27,651 nucleotides of DNA, from positions 1 through 27,651 of IMG/VR virus record IMGVR_UViG_3300008267_000845. The stretch is one strand, 5' to 3'. Shown one piece after another: positions 11,414 to 27,645 of the stretch; within the stretch, counting starts at the first letter, position 1; every line of letters begins with the position of its first letter. Both the position numbers and the translations under genes were made by a program. Source of the DNA: a virus. The notes under the pieces were generated by a model that had not been told where the DNA came from, searched no databases, and worked only from the letters and a program-made list of their open reading frames with translations.

Positions 11414-11798
11414 TTATAAAAATACTTGTAAAGATTATAGTATTAGTAAAGTATTAAGAGAACAAAAAAGAAGTAATGAATACTTTGAAATATTATTAAA
11501 TAATTTAACATTAGAAGAAATAATAGCTTTAAAAATGGAATTAGGATATAAAGCTATTGGTTTTCCATTACATGGCTTTCCAATTTGGAAGAGTACAAAC
11601 TATATAGTAAAAGATGCATTACTTAAATATGCTGTATCTGCTACTCAAACTAAAAGAGAAGCAATGAGATTATTAGGTTTGCCATCTAAAAGATTCTTTA
11701 GATTATTAAAGAAATTTAATATAAATGCATATTTTACTAAACAGGAAAAACAAGAAAATGCTGATTACAGAAATTCAATTAAAGAAGATATATCCTAA
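11400..11798 (+). CDS. Fis-type helix-turn-helix protein, 132 aa
   Basis: The ATG at 11400 lies inside the end of the preceding gene. The N-terminal half (LEEIIALKMELGYKAIGFPL, HGFPIWKSTNYIVKDALLKY) is helical. The C-terminal AVSATQTKREAMRLLGLPSK, RFFRLLKKFNI has the spacing of the HTH_8/Fis-like motif found at the C-terminus of NtrC-type activators (helix, T-K-x-E-A-x-x-x-L-G turn, recognition helix). A DNA-binding regulator is the best guess; target unknown. It overlaps the GH19 remnant by 41 bases. Confidence 0.6.
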   Translation: MKKNNYKNTCKDYSISKVLREQKRSNEYFEILLNNLTLEEIIALKMELGYKAIGFPLHGFPIWKSTNYIVKDALLKYAVSATQTKREAMRLLGLPSKRFFRLLKKFNINAYFTKQEKQENADYRNSIKEDIS

Positions 11799-12268
11799 TA
11801 TAAAAAAAGATAAATTACAAACCTATGTTAAAGCTTTTAATAATGTTTTTCCTACCTATGGCATCAATACCGCTAGAAGGATTGCTGCATTTCTTGGACA
11901 AGTTGGCGTCGAAAGCGGAGAATTAAAATACGATAAAATTATATGAAGGAAGAAAAAATTTAGGTAATACACAAGTCGGTGATGGACCTAAGTTTATTGG
12001 TCGTGGAATTCTTCAGTTGACAGGCAGAGCTAACTATGAGAACATGTCTAAGATATTAGGAGTTGATTTAGTTAATAACCCTGAATTAGCATGCGATCCA
12101 GAAATTAGTACTAAAATTGCTTGTGAATATTTTAAAAAACGCGGCTTGCTAGAATTAGCAGACGAATGGAATTTAGATGAAATAACTAAAAGAGTTAATG
12201 GTACTGCTAAATTACATCACGATATAAGAGTAAAATATAGTGAAAAAGCTTTAGAAATATTAAAATAA
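11758..12268 (+). pseudogene. frameshifted GH19-type endolysin (chitinase-like lysozyme)
   Basis: The first frame from ATG 11758 encodes MLITEIQLKKIYPNIKKDKL, then ARRIAAFLGQVGVESGELKY with the presumed catalytic glutamate (VES), and stops at 11944-11946. The +1 frame then reads YEGRKNLGNTQVGDGPKFIG, RGILQLTGRANYENMSKILG and continues to 12268. YEGR-x-x-LGN and GRGxxQLTGRxNY are hallmark GH19 blocks. A single extra A in the AAAA at 11934-11937 would explain the shift. The linker between ESGEL and YEGR also seems five to ten residues shorter than in relatives, so a small deletion is possible. As it stands, no full enzyme is made unless recoding occurs. Confidence 0.75.
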
Positions 12269-12972
12269 TGATTAAAGTTAAAATTAAAAATAAAATTCAA
12301 GAAATACAAGTTCCCAATAACTTAAAAAAAGATGATTGGCAAAATCACGTTGAGGATTGGAAAAGTTTAGGAAAAATTCTTATTAACAATTCTAATAGAT
12401 TTTCTAAAATCGGCATAAATGTTATGGGTGCAAAAAGATTAGGTTCTGGAGCATTTGGTAATGCATATTTATTAAAAGATGGAAAAGTATTAAAAATAAC
12501 TAAAGATACGGATGAAGCTGTAATAAGTAATTTTTTAATAAATAAAAATGCTGCTTATATAGTTAAAATTTTTAATGTTGTTAAACTGCCAATATTAGAA
12601 TCTGGTGAGCAGATTTATGCGATTTTACAAGAAAAATTATCTCCTTTATCTAGCAATAAAGGAACAATGTTAGAAAATAATATAAAACTTTTAAAAAAAT
12701 TGATTGGCGGTTCTGATCCATTTATTTTTACAAATAAATCTTGGGAAGAAATAAAAAAAATAGTAAATGAAAAAGATACAAAAAATACTATTAATTTTCT
12801 AGAAAAAATTGGTTTTGCAAATATTTGTAATAATTTAAAAGAACTTAAAATAAAATATGTCGATTTTCATTCTGGTAATTTTATGCTTAGAAATGATGGT
12901 ACATTAGTTCTTATAGACATAGGCGCAGATTCAACAAATTTTGGCAGTGAACAGAATATAAAACAAATATAA
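12268..12972 (+). CDS. protein-kinase-like protein, 234 aa
   Basis: ATG overlaps the endolysin remnant's TAA by one base. After about 50 N-terminal residues come a glycine loop (RLGSGAFGNAY, 57-67) and the ATP-binding lysine (GKVLKITK, K76). A hinge-like ILQEKL lies at 119-124, a catalytic loop V198-D-F-H-S-G-N204 has the DxHxxN arrangement, and L215-I-D-I-G219 replaces the DFG. All key kinase positions are present in a short sequence with a compact C-lobe, as in phage and small-molecule kinases. The target could be host proteins, an antibiotic-like small molecule or a sugar. Very AT-rich. Confidence 0.65.
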   Translation: MIKVKIKNKIQEIQVPNNLKKDDWQNHVEDWKSLGKILINNSNRFSKIGINVMGAKRLGSGAFGNAYLLKDGKVLKITKDTDEAVISNFLINKNAAYIVKIFNVVKLPILESGEQIYAILQEKLSPLSSNKGTMLENNIKLLKKLIGGSDPFIFTNKSWEEIKKIVNEKDTKNTINFLEKIGFANICNNLKELKIKYVDFHSGNFMLRNDGTLVLIDIGADSTNFGSEQNIKQI

Positions 12973-13564: not shown

Positions 13565-13636
13565 GCAGGAATAGCTCAGTGGTAGAGCATCACGTTGCCA
13601 ACGTGAGGGTCGTGGGTTCAAATCCCACTTTCTGCT
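13565..13636 (+). tRNA. tRNA-Gly(GCC)
   Basis: Acceptor GCAGGAA/TTTCTGC (one G-U), D-stem GCTC/GAGC, anticodon stem TCACG/CGTGA with loop TTGCCAA (anticodon GCC), T-stem GTGGG/CCCAC with TTCAAAT. Last tRNA of the cluster. Confidence 0.9.
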
Positions 13637-13969
13637 TGTTAGCGGTAGGTAGTAGGCCCAGAAGTAGCCATCTTTAATGAGTGAGACAAAATCCTTTACT
13701 AGTGATATAATTCCGTTAACAGCGGGGAGCGATGCGATGTTCTGCCCGAAGAAAGCACAACGAAACCTGATGTCAGTTGTGTGGACACACCGATTCTAGG
13801 TAAACTCCAATATATCTTAATGTACTAGGAGGTTGGGTAATAGGAAAGTCAGACTTACTGATGGGACAGAAACACACAAGAGATATAATCCTGAAAGATT
13901 ATATTGTCTGTTTCCTCCCGCTCTTTGGTGTAGTAACACGCCTACTGTTAACAGTTTTTGGAGAATAAA
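13637..13969 (+). ncRNA. candidate structured non-coding RNA (333-base gene-free stretch)
   Basis: This is the only stretch over 300 bases without a protein or tRNA gene. It follows directly on tRNA-Gly and ends at the ribosome binding site of the next gene. It is visibly less AT-rich than the flanking coding sequence. Elements seen: a small hairpin CCGTT/AGCGG at about 13713-13725; complementary TTGTGTG (13777-13783) and CACACAA (13873-13879), about 90 bases apart; a CTCC/GGAG pair around 13806-13832; and the long irregular hairpin at 13863-13919. I could not match it to tmRNA, RNase P, 4.5S, a group I or II intron core, or a hammerhead. GOLLD/ROOL-type phage RNAs sit near tRNAs but are longer. 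Confidence 0.45.
13863..13919 (+). other. long irregular hairpin within the candidate ncRNA
   Basis: Three collinear paired blocks: GGGA 13863-13866 with TCCC 13916-13919, GAAACA 13869-13874 with TGTTTC 13909-13914, and ATATAATC 13883-13890 with GATTATAT 13897-13904 around a CTGAAA loop. That makes 18 base pairs with small internal loops. There is no downstream T-run, so it does not look like a terminator. CACACAA in one internal loop can alternatively pair with TTGTGTG upstream. Confidence 0.6.
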
Positions 13970-21110: not shown

Positions 21111-22090
21111 TGAAAACAGCTGTTGTTACTGGAATAACAGGGCAAGATGGTAGTTATCTTGCGGAATTATTATTAGAAAAAGGTTACAAAATAGTTGGTT
21201 TAGTACGTAGAAGCTCTATGGAAGATAAAAAGCTTTTTAATATTGAACATTTATTACAGAATAAAAATCTAATATTAGAAAATGGAGATTTAACCGATTC
21301 TCCCTCTTTATGGAGAATTATTGGCTCTCACCAACCAGACGAATTCTATAATTTGGCCGCGCAAAGTCATGTTGGAGCATCTTTTACTTCCCCCGAAAGC
21401 ACTTTTCAAATAAATGCTACGGGGGTTTTAAATTGCTTGGAGGCTATTAAAACTCTAAAACCAGACACTAAATTTTATCAAGCAAGCACCAGTGAAATGT
21501 TTGGTGATAATATTAATGCTCCGCAAAATGAAGAAACACCATTTTCGCCTGTTTCTCCTTATGCTTGTGCAAAAGTTGCTGCTCATAATTTATTAGTAAA
21601 TTATCGTAAAGCATATGGACTTTTTGTATGTTCTGGCATTCTTTTTAATCACGAATCACCACGTAGAGGAGAGCAATTTGTTACAAGAAAGATAACAAAA
21701 GCAGCTGCTAGAATTAAACTTGGTTTACAAAAAGAATTACGTCTTGGCAATTTAGAAGCAAAACGCGATTGGGGATATGCTAAAGAATATGTTGAAGGAA
21801 TGTGGATGATGATGCAACATAGTAAGGCAGATGATTATGTATTAGGAACTGGTAAAACTCACACAATTTCTGATTTTATTTCTTGCATATCAGATATTGC
21901 TGGTTATAATTTAATGGATTACGTAATTCTTGACGAAAAGTATAAGCGACCAAGTGAAGTACCATTACTATTAGCCGACGCATCAAAAGCTAAAAAAGTT
22001 TTAGGTTGGGAGCCAAAAACCGATCTAAAGCAATTAGCTAATTTGATGTATAATACAGACTTAGAAAAGGAAAAAGCAAATGTCAGATAA
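21110..22090 (+). CDS. gmd: GDP-mannose 4,6-dehydratase, 326 aa
   Basis: I start at ATG 21110 (AAGGA about ten bases upstream) rather than an ATG three codons earlier. It is a short-chain dehydrogenase fold with the NADP-binding G8-x-x-G11-x-x-G14 (VVTGITGQDGSY). T127 and E129 (STSEMFG) and Y151-x-x-x-K155 (SPYACAKVAAH) are the catalytic set. LFNHESPRRGEQFVTRKIT and AKRDWGYAKEYVEGMW are diagnostic for GMD. It converts GDP-mannose to GDP-4-keto-6-deoxymannose, the precursor of GDP-fucose, rhamnose and perosamine. No epimerase or aminotransferase follows, so the host must supply the next step. Slightly shorter than typical GMD. Confidence 0.9.
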   Translation: MKTAVVTGITGQDGSYLAELLLEKGYKIVGLVRRSSMEDKKLFNIEHLLQNKNLILENGDLTDSPSLWRIIGSHQPDEFYNLAAQSHVGASFTSPESTFQINATGVLNCLEAIKTLKPDTKFYQASTSEMFGDNINAPQNEETPFSPVSPYACAKVAAHNLLVNYRKAYGLFVCSGILFNHESPRRGEQFVTRKITKAAARIKLGLQKELRLGNLEAKRDWGYAKEYVEGMWMMMQHSKADDYVLGTGKTHTISDFISCISDIAGYNLMDYVILDEKYKRPSEVPLLLADASKAKKVLGWEPKTDLKQLANLMYNTDLEKEKANVR

Positions 22091-23318
22091 AAAAATTAAA
22101 GTATTAACACTAAGCGATCATCCGTTATCACCTAGTGGAGTTGGCACTCAAACTAATTATATTTTACAAGCACTATTAAAAAGTGGCAAGTTTAAAGTTA
22201 TATCTCTTGGTGGAGCAATTAAGCATCAAGACTATAGACCAGTTAAATTTGAAGAATACGGAGATGATTTTATTATTCTTCCCGTAGATGGTTATGGCTC
22301 TCCAGAATTAATACGTACCATTCTAATGAAAGAAAAACCAGATATTTTATGGATGATGACAGATCCAAGATTTTATACTTGGCTTTGGAGTATGGAACAA
22401 GAAATTCGTCCAAATTTACCAATTGTTTATTATCACGTTTGGGATAATTATCCTTATCCGAAATTTAATAGACCTTATTATTTATCAAACGATAAAATTG
22501 CTACAATCTCTAAATTAACAAGCGACATCGTAAGAACAGTTGCTCCAGAGGTTGAAGAACAGTATGTTCCTCATGCGGTAAATCCAGATATATTTAAGAT
22601 TTTAGATGAAAAAGAATATGCACATTTAAAAACTAATAAGACTTTATTTTTCTGGACAAATAGAAATGCCCGCCGTAAGATGAGCGGCAGTGTTGTTTGG
22701 TGGTATAAAGAATTCCTAGATAAAGTTGGACACGATAAAGCATTCTTATTAATGCACACTGATCCAAAAGATCCACATGGACAAGATTTAATAGCGATTG
22801 CTGAAGAGCTTGGTTTATCAAAAGAAAATTTTGGTATTTCAGCTGGTAAAGTTCCCGCTCCGGAAATGGCTAAGTTTTATAATGCTGCTGATTGTACAAT
22901 TAATATCAGCGATGCAGAAGGGTTTGGTCTTTCAGTTTTAGAAAGTTTATCATGTGGAACTCCAGTTATAGCAAATAAAACTGGCGGCATGCAAGATCAA
23001 CTTACAGATGGTGTTGATACATATGGTGTATTAATTGAACCTGCTTCAAGGGCAGTTATTGGTTCACAGGAAGTGCCGTATATTTATGAAGATCGAGTTT
23101 CTAAAGAAGATTTTATAAATGCCTTGCTAAAGATTCATAATATGACCCGTGAAGAAAGAAAAGAATTAGGACGTAAGGGCTATGAAAATGTAAAGAAGAA
23201 TTTTGGCTTTGATACTTTCCAACAAACATGGGTTAAAATGCTATTAGACGTTCATGAAAAGCATGGTTCTTGGGAAACACGAAAAGGTTATAACGCTTGG
23301 GGCGTAAAGGAATACTAA
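22080..23318 (+). CDS. GT4-type glycosyltransferase, 412 aa
   Basis: GT-B fold. The N-terminal domain starts KIKVLTLSDHPLSPSGVGTQ with a glycine-rich acceptor loop. The C-terminal domain has NRNARRKMSG (R/K donor-phosphate contacts) and DAEGFGLSVLESLSCGTPVI, with E280 and E288 forming the EX7E motif of retaining GT4 enzymes. It would transfer a sugar from a nucleotide donor, possibly GDP-linked, given gmd directly upstream with a 11-base overlap. The acceptor is unknown. Confidence 0.8.
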   Translation: MSDKKIKVLTLSDHPLSPSGVGTQTNYILQALLKSGKFKVISLGGAIKHQDYRPVKFEEYGDDFIILPVDGYGSPELIRTILMKEKPDILWMMTDPRFYTWLWSMEQEIRPNLPIVYYHVWDNYPYPKFNRPYYLSNDKIATISKLTSDIVRTVAPEVEEQYVPHAVNPDIFKILDEKEYAHLKTNKTLFFWTNRNARRKMSGSVVWWYKEFLDKVGHDKAFLLMHTDPKDPHGQDLIAIAEELGLSKENFGISAGKVPAPEMAKFYNAADCTINISDAEGFGLSVLESLSCGTPVIANKTGGMQDQLTDGVDTYGVLIEPASRAVIGSQEVPYIYEDRVSKEDFINALLKIHNMTREERKELGRKGYENVKKNFGFDTFQQTWVKMLLDVHEKHGSWETRKGYNAWGVKEY

Positions 23319-23319
23319 G

Positions 23320-24528
23320 ATGAAAAAGATATTAATTAGCGGTCCTGTATTAAGCAGAAGCGGTTATGGAGAAATGGCACGTTTTGCATTACGTTCTTTA
23401 AAAGATCGTACAGATATAGATTTATATCTTTTACCAACATCTTGGGGTAATACTGGATGGTTACACGAAATAAATGATGAAAGAAACCTAATTGATTCAT
23501 TAATTTTAAAGACACAAGTATTATTACAGCAAACTAATAATAATCCACAATTTGATGTAGCAGTTCAAATATCTATTCCAAATGAATGGAAAAAGATGGC
23601 ACCAATCAATATCGGCTATACAGCTGGAATTGAAACAAATCTTATTTCTCCATCTTGGTTACAACCAAGTCAACAAATGGATAAGATTATAGTAATTAGC
23701 GAACATGCAAAAGCTGGTTTTGTTAATACAATTTTTGGTAATCCACAAGGACAGCAATTTAAAGTCACTGTTCCAGTTGAAGTAGTCCATTTACCTTACA
23801 GAAATACTGATAAAAAGCCCGTAGAGCTTGTTTTAAAGCACGATTTTAATTTCTTAGCGGTATGTCAATGGGGACCAAGAAAAAACCTAGAACAAACCAT
23901 TACGGGCTTTTTAGAAGAATTTAAAAAAGAAGAAATTGGTTTAGTATTAAAAATAAACAGTTCTAATGATTCTATAATAGATAGAAATTTAACACAAAAG
24001 CGTTTAGAAGCTTTATTGGCAAATTATCCTGATCGTAAATGCTCCATAACTTTACTACATGGTCATTTAAGCGAAGCAGAAATGGAATCTCTTTATAATC
24101 ATCCAAAAATCAAAGCAATTGTTTCTACTACTCATGGCGAAGGTTTTGGTTTACCATTATTAGAAGCAGCAGCAAACGAATTACCGGTAATTGCTACTGA
24201 TTGGAGCGGACATCTAGATTTCTTGTATTTACCAGATGGCGATGATAAGAAACGTATGTTTGGTAAGATAGATTATGACTTAAAACCAATTGATAAAGCA
24301 CATGTATGGAAAGGTGTTTTAGAAGAAGGTACACAATGGGCTTACCCAAAAATGGCAAGTTATAAAGATCGTCTTCGTGATTGTTATAAGGATTGGGGGC
24401 GTTATAAATCACAAGCTAAAAAATTAGCTCCTTGGGTAAAAGAAAATTTTAGCCAAGAAAAATTATTTAATAAAATGGTTTCTGAGCTGAAATTAGAAAC
24501 CTCAGAATCGGAATTAATAATATTATAA
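23320..24528 (+). CDS. GT4-type glycosyltransferase, 402 aa
   Basis: Starts MKKILISGPVLSRSGYGEMA, one base after the previous stop. The donor-binding half contains AVCQWGPRKNLEQTI and THGEGFGLPLLEAAANELPV with E274 and E282 (EX7E). N-terminal SGYGEMAR resembles SGYGNAAR in the next gene, so these two enzymes are probably paralogues. Retaining glycosyltransferase in the cytoplasm, working on the same glycan. Moderately AT-rich compared with the three genes that follow. Confidence 0.75.
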   Translation: MKKILISGPVLSRSGYGEMARFALRSLKDRTDIDLYLLPTSWGNTGWLHEINDERNLIDSLILKTQVLLQQTNNNPQFDVAVQISIPNEWKKMAPINIGYTAGIETNLISPSWLQPSQQMDKIIVISEHAKAGFVNTIFGNPQGQQFKVTVPVEVVHLPYRNTDKKPVELVLKHDFNFLAVCQWGPRKNLEQTITGFLEEFKKEEIGLVLKINSSNDSIIDRNLTQKRLEALLANYPDRKCSITLLHGHLSEAEMESLYNHPKIKAIVSTTHGEGFGLPLLEAAANELPVIATDWSGHLDFLYLPDGDDKKRMFGKIDYDLKPIDKAHVWKGVLEEGTQWAYPKMASYKDRLRDCYKDWGRYKSQAKKLAPWVKENFSQEKLFNKMVSELKLETSESELIIL

Positions 24529-25694
24529 TGAAAAATATTGTTTATATTGGACAATTTAAAGATGCCTCTGGATATGGTAATGCTGCCAGAGGCTATCTGT
24601 TTTTATTAGATAAAAAATTAGATAAATCTTTATATAATTTAAATATTATTTCATTAAATTTTGAAAAACAAGAGTATATTAGCGTTGAAGATAAAAATTT
24701 ATTAGATAAATATGAACTTTTAAATCCATTAGAATTTTGTAAAAATAATAAATATACTTTAATTGTTCATGGATTGCCAAATTATTGTGAAATAAATTTA
24801 ATTAAAAATTTATTAAATAATAAAAATTGCGAAAAGAAAATTAATTTTGTGGCTTGGGAAACAGACAATATTCCAAAACAATGGAAGAAAATTTATGAAG
24901 ATGATGTTTATGATGAATTAGTTGTATTTTCTAAATGGAATAAAGAAATATTTTCTAAATCTTTTATAAAACCAATACATATAATTCCGCATGTAATATT
25001 AGATTTTTATGATTTAAATAAAAAAAATAATAATAAATTTAATATTTTCTCCATGTCTCAATGGAGTAACAGAAAAGGATTTGATATTCTTTTAAAAGCC
25101 TATTATCAAGAATTTTTTAATAATGAAGATGTTGAATTATTTATAAAAACTTATAGAAATGAAACCATGTCTGGCATTGAAGAGAGTAAAGAAAGAGAAA
25201 TAATTATAAATGATATAACAAAGATTAAGAATTCCATTAGAGATTATGGTAATTTACCAAAATGTAAAGTTTCCTTAAAAACAGGTTTTGTTGATAAAAA
25301 AGAAATTAAATCTTATTATGAAAAGGCGGATGTATACTGTAGTCCTAGTCGCGGTGAAGGCTTTGGTATGACAATAGCTCAAGCGGCTTTGTCTGGGATA
25401 CCGTGTATAGTACCAGATTTAGGAGGTCATATAGATTATCTGGATCCAAATAATACGTATTGGATAAAAAGTATTTTTGAACCAGTATATGATTTGTCGT
25501 ATAATATATACTCTTCTATTGATATGAATTTTATTGAGCCAGAACTTAAAAGTACAAGAAATCAGCTTAGAAAAGCATATAATAACTGGAAAACTGATAA
25601 ATTAAATTCCGTAAGTGATGAATATAAAACATTTACTCGTAATTATTTATCAGAAGATAAAATATTTAATAAATTTATGGAGATGATATGTTAG
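24528..25694 (+). CDS. GT4-type glycosyltransferase with altered EX7E, 388 aa
   Basis: The ATG overlaps the previous TAA. The N-terminus MKNIVYIGQFKDASGYGNAA and the donor site (SMSQWSNRKGFDILLKAYYQ) are typical GT-B. In CSPSRGEGFGMTIAQAALSG the first glutamate (E277) is kept but the second position is Q285, not E. That may alter donor binding or reduce activity, though some family members tolerate Q. Base composition becomes much more AT-rich from here on, pointing to a separate origin for this and the next two genes. Confidence 0.7.
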   Translation: MKNIVYIGQFKDASGYGNAARGYLFLLDKKLDKSLYNLNIISLNFEKQEYISVEDKNLLDKYELLNPLEFCKNNKYTLIVHGLPNYCEINLIKNLLNNKNCEKKINFVAWETDNIPKQWKKIYEDDVYDELVVFSKWNKEIFSKSFIKPIHIIPHVILDFYDLNKKNNNKFNIFSMSQWSNRKGFDILLKAYYQEFFNNEDVELFIKTYRNETMSGIEESKEREIIINDITKIKNSIRDYGNLPKCKVSLKTGFVDKKEIKSYYEKADVYCSPSRGEGFGMTIAQAALSGIPCIVPDLGGHIDYLDPNNTYWIKSIFEPVYDLSYNIYSSIDMNFIEPELKSTRNQLRKAYNNWKTDKLNSVSDEYKTFTRNYLSEDKIFNKFMEMIC

Positions 25695-26602
25695 AAAATC
25701 TAAAAAAGATACAATTTCCAATTTCAAAAGATTTTAATAATGAAAAAGTTGCAGTAGCAATAACAGCGTATGATAGACCAGAATATTATAAACAATGTGT
25801 TCACGCTATTAATAAATGTCCGGAATTAGAACAAGTTCCCATATTTATATTTCTTGATGGTGGTTCTAAAAGTAAATCTAAAGAAAATTTAGAATTGTCT
25901 AAAAATATAAAATTTAAAAATAAATTTGTATTGAAAAGAAATGTTAATTTTGGATGTGAAAAAAACATTTTAGATGTCTTTAAGACAATTTTTGAAGATC
26001 TTGAATTCGATTATTTATTTCTATTAGAAGACGATATAGTTGTTGGAAAAAATTATTTTAAATCTTGTTTTGAAGCATATAAAGATATTTACAATAACAT
26101 AGATAAAACAATAGGGATTTTTCAAGGACATTCACTTTGCCAAATGCCTACTGAAGAAAAAAAACGTTATATTAATAATTATGAATTATCTGGCGACTTA
26201 CATCATTGGGGAATATTAATTTCTAAAAAAGCTTACAATGAAATAAAAATTAAATTAAAACAATATATTGATCTAATTTTTTCTTTACCAAATGACGGTA
26301 ATTCTAATATTAATATTATAAAAAATAAATTTATTATTAATAATATTTTTGATAATATATTAAATAATTCCACCGGAGAAATACCAAATAAAATATATAA
26401 AGATTATTATAATAAACAAAATAGTCATTGTACATTGGGTTGGGACGGCGCTTTTTTAATTTGCCTATTAAGTTGTAATATGAAAAGATATAATTTTGTT
26501 GTTAATCGAATGATAAATATTGGTCGTGAAGGTAGTCATTTTAGTAAAAAAGAATTTGAACAAATGAATTTACATAAAATGGAATTAGAAGAATTATGGT
26601 AA
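25688..26602 (+). CDS. GT-A glycosyltransferase, GnT-I/GT13-like, 304 aa
   Basis: Opens with KVAVAITAYDRPEYYKQCVH, the nucleotide-binding start of GT-A enzymes, then IFIFLDGGSKSK. E114-D115-D116 (YLFLLEDDIVVGKNYF) is the metal-binding DxD-type motif. SGDLHHWGILISKKAYNEI and the later CTLGWDGAFLICLL resemble the acceptor side of GT13-like and related inverting enzymes. Sugar and acceptor are unknown. It overlaps both neighbours by 7 bases, and is the only GT-A fold in the cluster. Confidence 0.65.
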   Translation: MLENLKKIQFPISKDFNNEKVAVAITAYDRPEYYKQCVHAINKCPELEQVPIFIFLDGGSKSKSKENLELSKNIKFKNKFVLKRNVNFGCEKNILDVFKTIFEDLEFDYLFLLEDDIVVGKNYFKSCFEAYKDIYNNIDKTIGIFQGHSLCQMPTEEKKRYINNYELSGDLHHWGILISKKAYNEIKIKLKQYIDLIFSLPNDGNSNINIIKNKFIINNIFDNILNNSTGEIPNKIYKDYYNKQNSHCTLGWDGAFLICLLSCNMKRYNFVVNRMINIGREGSHFSKKEFEQMNLHKMELEELW

Positions 26603-27645
26603 AAAATATATGTTTTCATGTAAATAAGTTTTTTCCTTATATGGGCGGTACTGAATTATTAGCTAAACAAATAATTGATTATATTCATATAAATACTAAA
26701 TTTAATATAGTCGTAAAAACTTCTAAAGAAGAAAATAGAAAAAATATTATTTTTCCTTATATAATAGAGGAAGATCAATTTTTAAGAGAAGAACAATTTT
26801 TTGATATTAGTGTTTTTTTTAGCGATTTATGGAGTGAGCAATTAGCAAATTATTCTATTAAAAAAAGTAAAAAAAATATATGTATATTAAATTTAGATGA
26901 AATGACATATCCATATAAATATAATTTTAAAACTACAATAAATAATTTAAAAAAATTTGATTTAGTTATTACATTTACAATTAATGGAATAGCTAACAGA
27001 TTTTTAGAAGAAGAAAAAATTAATAATTTATATATACCAAATTTTTCAAGAGATGTTTTATCCAATCCAAAAATTTTTAATTTAAAAGAAAAATTAAAAT
27101 TAGATGACAAGAAGGTAGCTTTATATTGTGCAGCATATGACGTTAGAAAAAATCAATTATCTTTATTAGAGTCTATTAAAAAATCTGATATTTTAAAAAA
27201 TTATAATTGGATTTTTATAGGAAATAACTCTGATATAGAATATCAGAAAAAATGTGTTAATTATGTAAAATATAATAATTTAAAAAATATTTTTTTTGTT
27301 TCACCAACAACTGAAGAAATAAAAATTGATACTCTATACCAACAGGTTGATTTAGTAGTATTATTATCTTTAGCAGAAGGTATGCCTTTAACGCTGTTGG
27401 AGAGTTTAAGCGCTAATAAACCTTTAATTTCTACGCCGGTTGGCGGAGTTTCAGGTGTTCTAAAAGATGGTATAGATAATGGAGTATACATTTTAGAAAA
27501 AGTAAATTATGAACTAGAGGATTTAGAAAACAACATTTTAAAATCCAATACCTATAACTCTCAGCATTTACGTAATATGTGGTTAAAAAATCATCAAAAA
27601 TCACTTATATTAGAAAAGTATAAAAAATTATTTGATGATTTATAA
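26596..27645 (+). CDS. GT4-type glycosyltransferase, 349 aa
   Basis: Starts MVKNICFHVNKFFPYMGGTE with the GGTE acceptor loop typical of GT4. The C-terminal domain has YDVRKNQLSLLESI and SLAEGMPLTLLESLSANKPL, with E261 and E269 in the EX7E motif and TPVGG after it. It ends six bases before the window end, so the operon may continue. Extremely AT-rich, with codon use to match. Confidence 0.75.
   Translation: MVKNICFHVNKFFPYMGGTELLAKQIIDYIHINTKFNIVVKTSKEENRKNIIFPYIIEEDQFLREEQFFDISVFFSDLWSEQLANYSIKKSKKNICILNLDEMTYPYKYNFKTTINNLKKFDLVITFTINGIANRFLEEEKINNLYIPNFSRDVLSNPKIFNLKEKLKLDDKKVALYCAAYDVRKNQLSLLESIKKSDILKNYNWIFIGNNSDIEYQKKCVNYVKYNNLKNIFFVSPTTEEIKIDTLYQQVDLVVLLSLAEGMPLTLLESLSANKPLISTPVGGVSGVLKDGIDNGVYILEKVNYELEDLENNILKSNTYNSQHLRNMWLKNHQKSLILEKYKKLFDDL

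Follow-up and report, generated by a model that had tools for sequence, protein, structure and literature searches.

The GTPase-associated centre (GAC) of bacterial 23S rRNA, which comprises helices h42–h44 at E. coli positions 1051–1108 and lies within Rfam family RF02541, is the site at which ribosomal protein uL11 and thiostrepton bind and at which translation factors dock. The isolated 58-nt GAC RNA folds by itself and binds uL11 tightly, and activation of RelA requires uL11. Imitation of an rRNA binding site outside the ribosome is a feature of ribosomal protein leaders (L1, L10, S8, S15), which act in cis on r-protein genes. Among phage RNAs, the stable RNAs C and D of T4 are small, of unknown function, and located in the phage tRNA cluster, and the structured GOLLD and ROOL RNAs, encoded by phages (also prophages) and likewise without a known function, form RNA cages and sit by tRNA islands (PMC12286853). 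The bacterial OLE RNA has been proposed to sequester the ribosomal protein RpsU (PMC12286853). The phage RNA family analyzed here shares with the leaders the copying of an r-protein's rRNA site, with GOLLD, ROOL and the T4 RNAs a location beside tRNAs, and with OLE RNA the proposed holding of a ribosomal protein. It differs from the leaders in being carried by phages with no r-protein gene downstream, from GOLLD and ROOL in that these are much longer and have other folds and sequences, and from OLE RNA in that the latter is unrelated in sequence and fold and contains no rRNA copy.

The starting point was a 27.7-kb virus fragment from IMG/VR (27,651 nt, the whole of the DNA analyzed, hereafter called the window), in which a first-pass annotation had flagged positions 13637–13969 as a gene-free, comparatively AT-poor stretch that might encode a structured RNA released by processing of the adjoining tRNA. 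The setting proved to be as described. Open reading frames in the stretch are of chance size only (40–73 aa), its G+C content is ∼0.45 along most of its length versus 0.23–0.33 in the flanking genes, and position 13637 starts immediately 3′ of a tRNA-Gly(GCC) (13565–13636, plus strand; ARAGORN, Rfam tRNA 74.1 bits), which is the final member of a six-tRNA cluster and lies outside the element. Release of the RNA by tRNA processing is plausible. The folding energy of the stretch alone is unremarkable (z = −1.47), and the case for a structured RNA therefore rests on conservation. The earlier statement that the stretch matches no known RNA class is true of Rfam, since no family matched this stretch at its gathering threshold and GOLLD and ROOL gave nothing there at E≤10 and were also missing from the relatives. 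It is false in a wider sense, because the RNA is homologous to the 23S rRNA GAC in sequence and tertiary design. Other candidate classes were rejected individually. RNase P RNA had been suggested by GGUAAACUCC..AAUAGG, a string that falls in a variable, unconserved part of the element, and a group I intron by GAUAUAAUCC, which is one arm of a local hairpin; Rfam matched neither class in the window (E≤10 for RNase P RNA). A mir-787 match (E 2) was on the wrong strand and spurious.

To collect relatives, the adjacent head-maturation-protease gene was used as bait, which led to related phages with the same RNA at the same site, in some cases immediately after a tmRNA. The conserved end blocks, which flank a variable middle, were then turned into DNA patterns, and these added relatives located on contigs as large as 470 kb. 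The same element was found in more than 140 viral loci plus isolated phages, and it is mostly unannotated. All 120 loci obtained with the 3′-block pattern alone show the 5′ block or match the covariance model (the locus end truncates a few of them), and seven loci (L034, L037, L039, L040, L042, L044, L052) were dropped as matches of that pattern that arose by chance or in coding sequence. The link to isolated phages was provided by the 5′ block of the divergent relative L030, GGCUUAGAAGUAGCCAUCCUUUAAAGAGUG, which is the h43–h44 region of bacterial 23S rRNA. Isolated carriers are Aeromonas phage 4_4572; Pseudomonas phages pf16, UNO-G1W1, Milchi and Astolliot; Cronobacter phage GAP32; Pectobacterium phage CBB; Serratia phage BF; Erwinia phages pEa_SNUABM_12, 19, 44, 47, 49 and 50, and Kaldavass; Xanthomonas phages XacN1, XaC1 and XbC2; Acinetobacter phage ME3; and Vibrio phage 2.275.O. 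In nearly all of them the site carries no annotation, and in Milchi it is annotated as a hypothetical protein. More direct searches were unproductive: GenBank phages searched by blastn with the window RNA returned chance matches only, a single 22-nt probe was too specific and matched nothing in IMG/VR, and a pattern of the window type yielded one match, a non-member, across 84,980 genomes. One copy (L187, 4674–4829; model E 4e-11) lies on the Methylobacterium indicum plasmid pVL1_2, a 128-kb replicon described as 'non-mobilizable', rich in small hypothetical genes and possibly a phage-plasmid. Two deposited 'phage' records, MZ092003 (Pd_22F, ∼83976–84012) and OR845016, contain genuine bacterial 23S rRNA and are probably assembly or contamination artefacts.

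Searches in opposite directions agree on the identity of the element, which is almost certainly a rebuilt GAC of 23S rRNA with helices h42, h43 and h44. A covariance model built from 17 phage elements only matched E. coli 23S rRNA at 1045–1116 (E 4e-13), S. aureus 23S rRNA (2e-16) and Paenibacillus 23S rRNA (5e-16), the GAC being its sole match in those bacterial 23S records. It also matched the window (E 5e-7). In the reverse test, a profile of the bacterial 23S GAC matched 119 viral loci at E<1e-3, and the Rfam LSU_rRNA_bacteria model matched phage Astolliot at model positions 1081–1156 (E 1.7e-4, below the gathering score). No LSU match in the phage loci was above gathering; only the GAC is present, not as part of a full-length 23S gene. 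The T4 region encoding rnaC and rnaD had no match to the phage-only model (best E 9). In E. coli 23S numbering, the order of parts is a closing helix P1 (= h42), h43 (1057–1081), the junction J43/44 with the 5′ strand of h44 (1082–1091), an insert, the sequence UUUG, the h44 apex GC-GUAAYA-GC, positions 1101–1104, and the second strand of P1. The likeness to 23S rRNA extends to a near-identical h43 and J43/44, the same h44 hexaloop GUAAYA, the 1082:1086 pair, and U1060 and A1088, and the h43 hairpin with its 1065–1073 loop and 2×2 internal loop is present in the family. In contrast to the ribosomal GAC, the phage RNA is free-standing, with the rest of 23S absent and an h42 whose sequence varies freely, and its h44 is not continuous but is split by an insert of 21–359 nt with its own closing helix, plus UUUG.

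All of these parts can be located in the window, on the plus strand. The conserved core consists of 13638–13683 and 13924–13952, separated by a 240-nt insert. P1 is formed by GUUAGCGGUAGG (13638–13649) and CCUACUGUUAAC (13941–13952), with 12 of 12 pairs formed and compensatory changes in relatives. The h43 mimic (13651–13673, aligned with 23S 1058–1081) contains the pairs A13651-U13673 and G13652-C13672, an internal loop UA/AU, and GGC 13655–13657 paired with GCC 13667–13669, capped by an apical loop at 13658–13666 in which U13665 corresponds to U1072. The bacterial GAC profile (nhmmer) matches exactly at 13652–13683 (E 0.03). J43/44 and the h44 5′ strand, UUUAAUGAGUG (13673–13683), correspond to 23S 1081–1091, and A13680 (A1088) is partnered with U13653 (U1060). 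The insert (13684–13923) is closed by G13683-C13923, A13684-U13922 and G13685-C13921 and is joined by the UUUG linker (13924–13927), which is conserved and has no counterpart in 23S rRNA, to the h44 apex (13928–13937; 23S 1091–1100). There, G13928-C13937 and U13929-A13936 close the hexaloop GUAGUA (13930–13935; A13932 = A1095), of the same class as the GUAAUA and GUAACA loops of 23S rRNA, and U13665 together with U13929-A13936 gives the triple 1072.(1092-1099) in its U.(U-A) form. The h44 3′ strand (13938–13941) pairs A13938 (1101) with U13682 and C13939 (1102) with G13681, and both are 100% paired in the A2 alignment. The window copy is a divergent but recognizable member of the family: its h43 is one base pair shorter than in the usual member, it has a G at 1103, and, like a group of relatives, it shows U.U at 1082:1086 in place of the U-A, A-U or C-G of most members. 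Because of this divergence, uL11 binding is predicted with less confidence for this copy than for copies such as that of GAP32.

Covariation was assessed with 83 sequences against a phylogeny-aware null, which replays the inferred substitutions along the tree. The top eleven covarying pairs (E<0.01) all belong to the structure: 1058:1080 (A-U/G-C/U-A), six P1 pairs, 1082:1086, and the three pairs that close the insert across the family (1091:i-1, i1:i-2, i2:i-3), the partner of 1091 being the nucleotide before UUUG. Next in rank is 1072-1092 (E 0.03). In 109 distinct members, 1082:1086 is U-A in 60, A-U in 21, C-G in 13 and U.U in 13, and the triple 1072.(1092-1099) occurs as C.(C-G) (85 members), U.(U-A) (22) or U.(U.G) (two), the types never being mixed. 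This coupled change from C/C-G to U/U-A matches what is expected of the GAC base triple, for which Conn, Gutell and Draper reportedly described such coupling. U1060 and A1088, a tertiary pair in GAC crystal structures, are invariant (109/109), the invariance of A1088 being partly fixed by the search because J43/44 belonged to the search anchor. The UUU of the linker is likewise constant (83/83) and its G nearly so (82/83), in columns partly fixed by the 3′ search pattern. Conservation of J43/44, the h44 apex and the 3′ block in general is thus overstated to some degree, but the covariation results are unaffected. Simple pair counting in 17 members gave the same picture, with 96% of cells paired versus 74.5% after shuffling, 93 double changes versus 27, and a covariation score of 0.61 versus 0.17 in shuffles; none of 500 shuffles reached this score, and slid structures scored 0.07–0.18. 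Covariation at both tertiary and helical GAC pairs indicates that selection maintains the tertiary fold. The proposal of a structured non-coding RNA beside tRNAs is therefore strongly supported, and decay of a tRNA or of a protein gene is rejected as the origin of the element.

The first-pass annotation had drawn attention to features that fall inside the variable insert, whereas conservation in the window is concentrated in the two ends (13638–13683 and 13921–13952). The imperfect 18-bp hairpin that it described at 13863–13919 is real (−17.1 kcal/mol); five near relatives (L002, L003, L004, L006, L007) preserve the pairs at its base, which are missing from L008, L009 and L010. The heptamers 13777–13783 and 13873–13879 are complementary in the window as claimed. 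The long-range pairing inferred from them, however, and with it a switch competing with the hairpin, found no support in relatives, since each pair is kept in only 2–5 of nine sequences and the 5′ heptamer is the 3′ strand of a local stem, GCACAAC/GUUGUGU (13755–13782), that shows compensatory changes (alignment columns 175–181/196–202) and excludes the alternative. Among the 109 members the insert has a median length of 153 nt, and in two it measures just 21–24 nt (21 nt in L147), so the constant part of the RNA is the GAC core. In a minority of members (L006, L009, L038, L079, L099, L100, L113, L117, L119, L135, L144, L157, L158, L180, L181) a hairpin of ∼20–60 nt is inserted at another site, independent of that in h44, between h43 and J43/44 (1077–1081).

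The uL11-binding fold is what stays constant, and inserts may be as short as 21 nt. Read most simply, the RNA binds the uL11 of the host, and in the cell it probably does so. The function we favor, with better than even chances of being correct, is that of a phage-encoded structural mimic of the GAC that acts in trans through host uL11, as a decoy or an assembly platform. P1, h43 and h44 would fold into a three-way junction with the tertiary core that uL11 recognizes, with a lineage-specific domain jutting from h44. The RNA would be made in infected cells, either excised from a tRNA transcript or transcribed from its own promoter, would bind host uL11, and would compete in trans with ribosomes for free or newly made uL11, perhaps drawing in the stalk and its GTPases. 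Possible outcomes are ribosomes partly depleted of uL11, a reduced synthesis of (p)ppGpp by way of RelA, and changes in factor-dependent steps, and the variable insert may provide stability, a second ligand or host-specific tuning. Because RelA activation requires uL11, a relaxed stringent response is a natural candidate consequence, although it is doubtful that this is the main effect. Equally tentative is the stronger version, in which the RNA is a weapon that strips or withholds uL11, perhaps with the GTPase stalk, from host ribosomes, silences RelA signalling and steers translation toward the phage. Given how abundant ribosomes and uL11 are, a decoy would need a very high copy number, and the h44 insertion and UUUG, having no rRNA counterpart, might alter or block uL11 binding. 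No uL11 gene was detected in the 18 phage records searched (the control was positive in 14/14 genomes). Short segments resembling the bL12 C-terminal domain were seen in phage UNO-G1W1 (96300–96383, W03; E 7e-10) and in G007 (240996–241076; E 4.5e-8), where they sit in phage ORFs of ∼200 aa; the other 16 records searched lack them.

The target loops of the GAC are also what a sacrificial decoy for an attacker or binder of this site would need, be it a thiopeptide antibiotic, a defence enzyme that modifies or cuts rRNA, or a translation-targeting toxin. The GAC is an established thiostrepton site, A1095 is constant (83/83), and the 1067 loop closely resembles its 23S rRNA counterpart. Position 1067, however, which is critical for thiostrepton, varies (A in 71, G in nine, C in two, U in one of the 83 sequences), so that this contact is not strictly kept, which argues against a thiostrepton sponge, and the positions that never vary are those forming the fold and junction. 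We consider a decoy of this kind improbable.

A comparably small chance is given to a cis-acting leader or spacer, in which uL11 or another protein on the nascent RNA would control the processing or expression of a neighboring tRNA or gene. Mimicry of rRNA is the usual trick of r-protein leaders, and the genomic setting lends the idea some weight: of 108 members, 40 have a tRNA or tmRNA no more than 100 bp away, versus 23 expected if they were placed at random in these stretches, which are rich in tRNAs to begin with, and the 54 with such a neighbor within 500 bp all share its strand. On the other hand, P1 seals the whole element as a separate unit, tRNAs are missing from the retrieved stretch in 37 of the 108 loci, and in XacN1 the RNA is immediately preceded by a promoter-like TTGACT-17-TAATAT and immediately followed by a terminator-like hairpin, such matches being weak evidence. 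What makes this a weaker rival is that the downstream genes differ among loci (tRNA, ClpP-like protease, HNH nuclease, hypothetical). An r-protein leader in the strict sense was rejected, given these neighbors and the missing uL11 gene.

A slim chance goes to reuse of the GAC fold as a scaffold, for example to bring tRNAs or translational GTPases into an RNA-protein body of the phage, with no titration of uL11. The insert is large and variable, and the cage-forming GOLLD and ROOL RNAs are likewise found by tRNA islands (PMC12286853). Yet the insert is dispensable, as in L147, and varies freely, so a shared second domain is not evident beyond the closing helix and UUUG. That the element is a captured, decaying 23S fragment or a contaminant without function is next to impossible: a few 'phage' records are truly plain 23S rRNA (L057 and L063, which we used as controls), but covariation at tertiary and helical pairs refutes the idea, and the element occurs in complete isolated phages and throughout a whole genus.

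A GAC mimic acting on host uL11 thus remains the preferred reading; on this view, many large phages would produce a decoy or platform for a central component of host protein synthesis. The family is apparently undescribed so far; no prior description was found in Rfam 15 or in open-licence PMC papers. A free-standing rRNA functional centre in many unrelated large phages would represent a new way for viruses to handle the ribosome, through RNA rather than protein. If the uL11-stripping reading is true, it would be, to our knowledge, the first trans-acting viral mimic of an rRNA functional centre. Classical reagents are available for direct tests of the idea (uL11, the 58-nt GAC fragment, thiostrepton), which proposes a function open to assay for one class of the unexplained RNAs at phage tRNA islands, and the family itself is a large natural data set for the GAC tertiary fold outside the ribosome.

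Several further observations concern the surroundings of the element. In three loci (L010, L011, L017) it starts at ∼3195, directly downstream of a phage tmRNA (2847–3192) with a tag ending in YALAA, and L033 and L031 are similar, so that two translation-related RNAs, tmRNA and GAC mimic, adjoin. The element lies beside and not within the tmRNA in the former three loci, and the window has no tmRNA match (ARAGORN, Rfam); a tmRNA or decayed tRNA was rejected as its identity. L126 has two adjacent copies on the minus strand, one of the U.(U-A) and one of the C.(C-G) type, Astolliot (L186, 1744–1928) has a second copy upstream, and L183 also carries tandem divergent copies. Near the element in L105, a 375,937-bp phage contig, positions 1253–1537 gave a sub-threshold match to the Y RNA-like YrlA (E 9e-5; score 36.7 versus a gathering score of 69). 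In the window, the gene just upstream of the tRNA cluster (12268–12972) shows a weak likeness to phage protein kinases (phrog_15752, E 3.5e-6), a kind that shuts off host transcription. Positions 11700–12268 look by eye like a GH19-type lysozyme/chitinase split across two frames near 11945, by either a real frameshift or a sequencing error. At the right end (22080–27645), a run of glycosyltransferase-like genes (phrog_2170 family, four hits) suggests glycosylation of the capsid or DNA.
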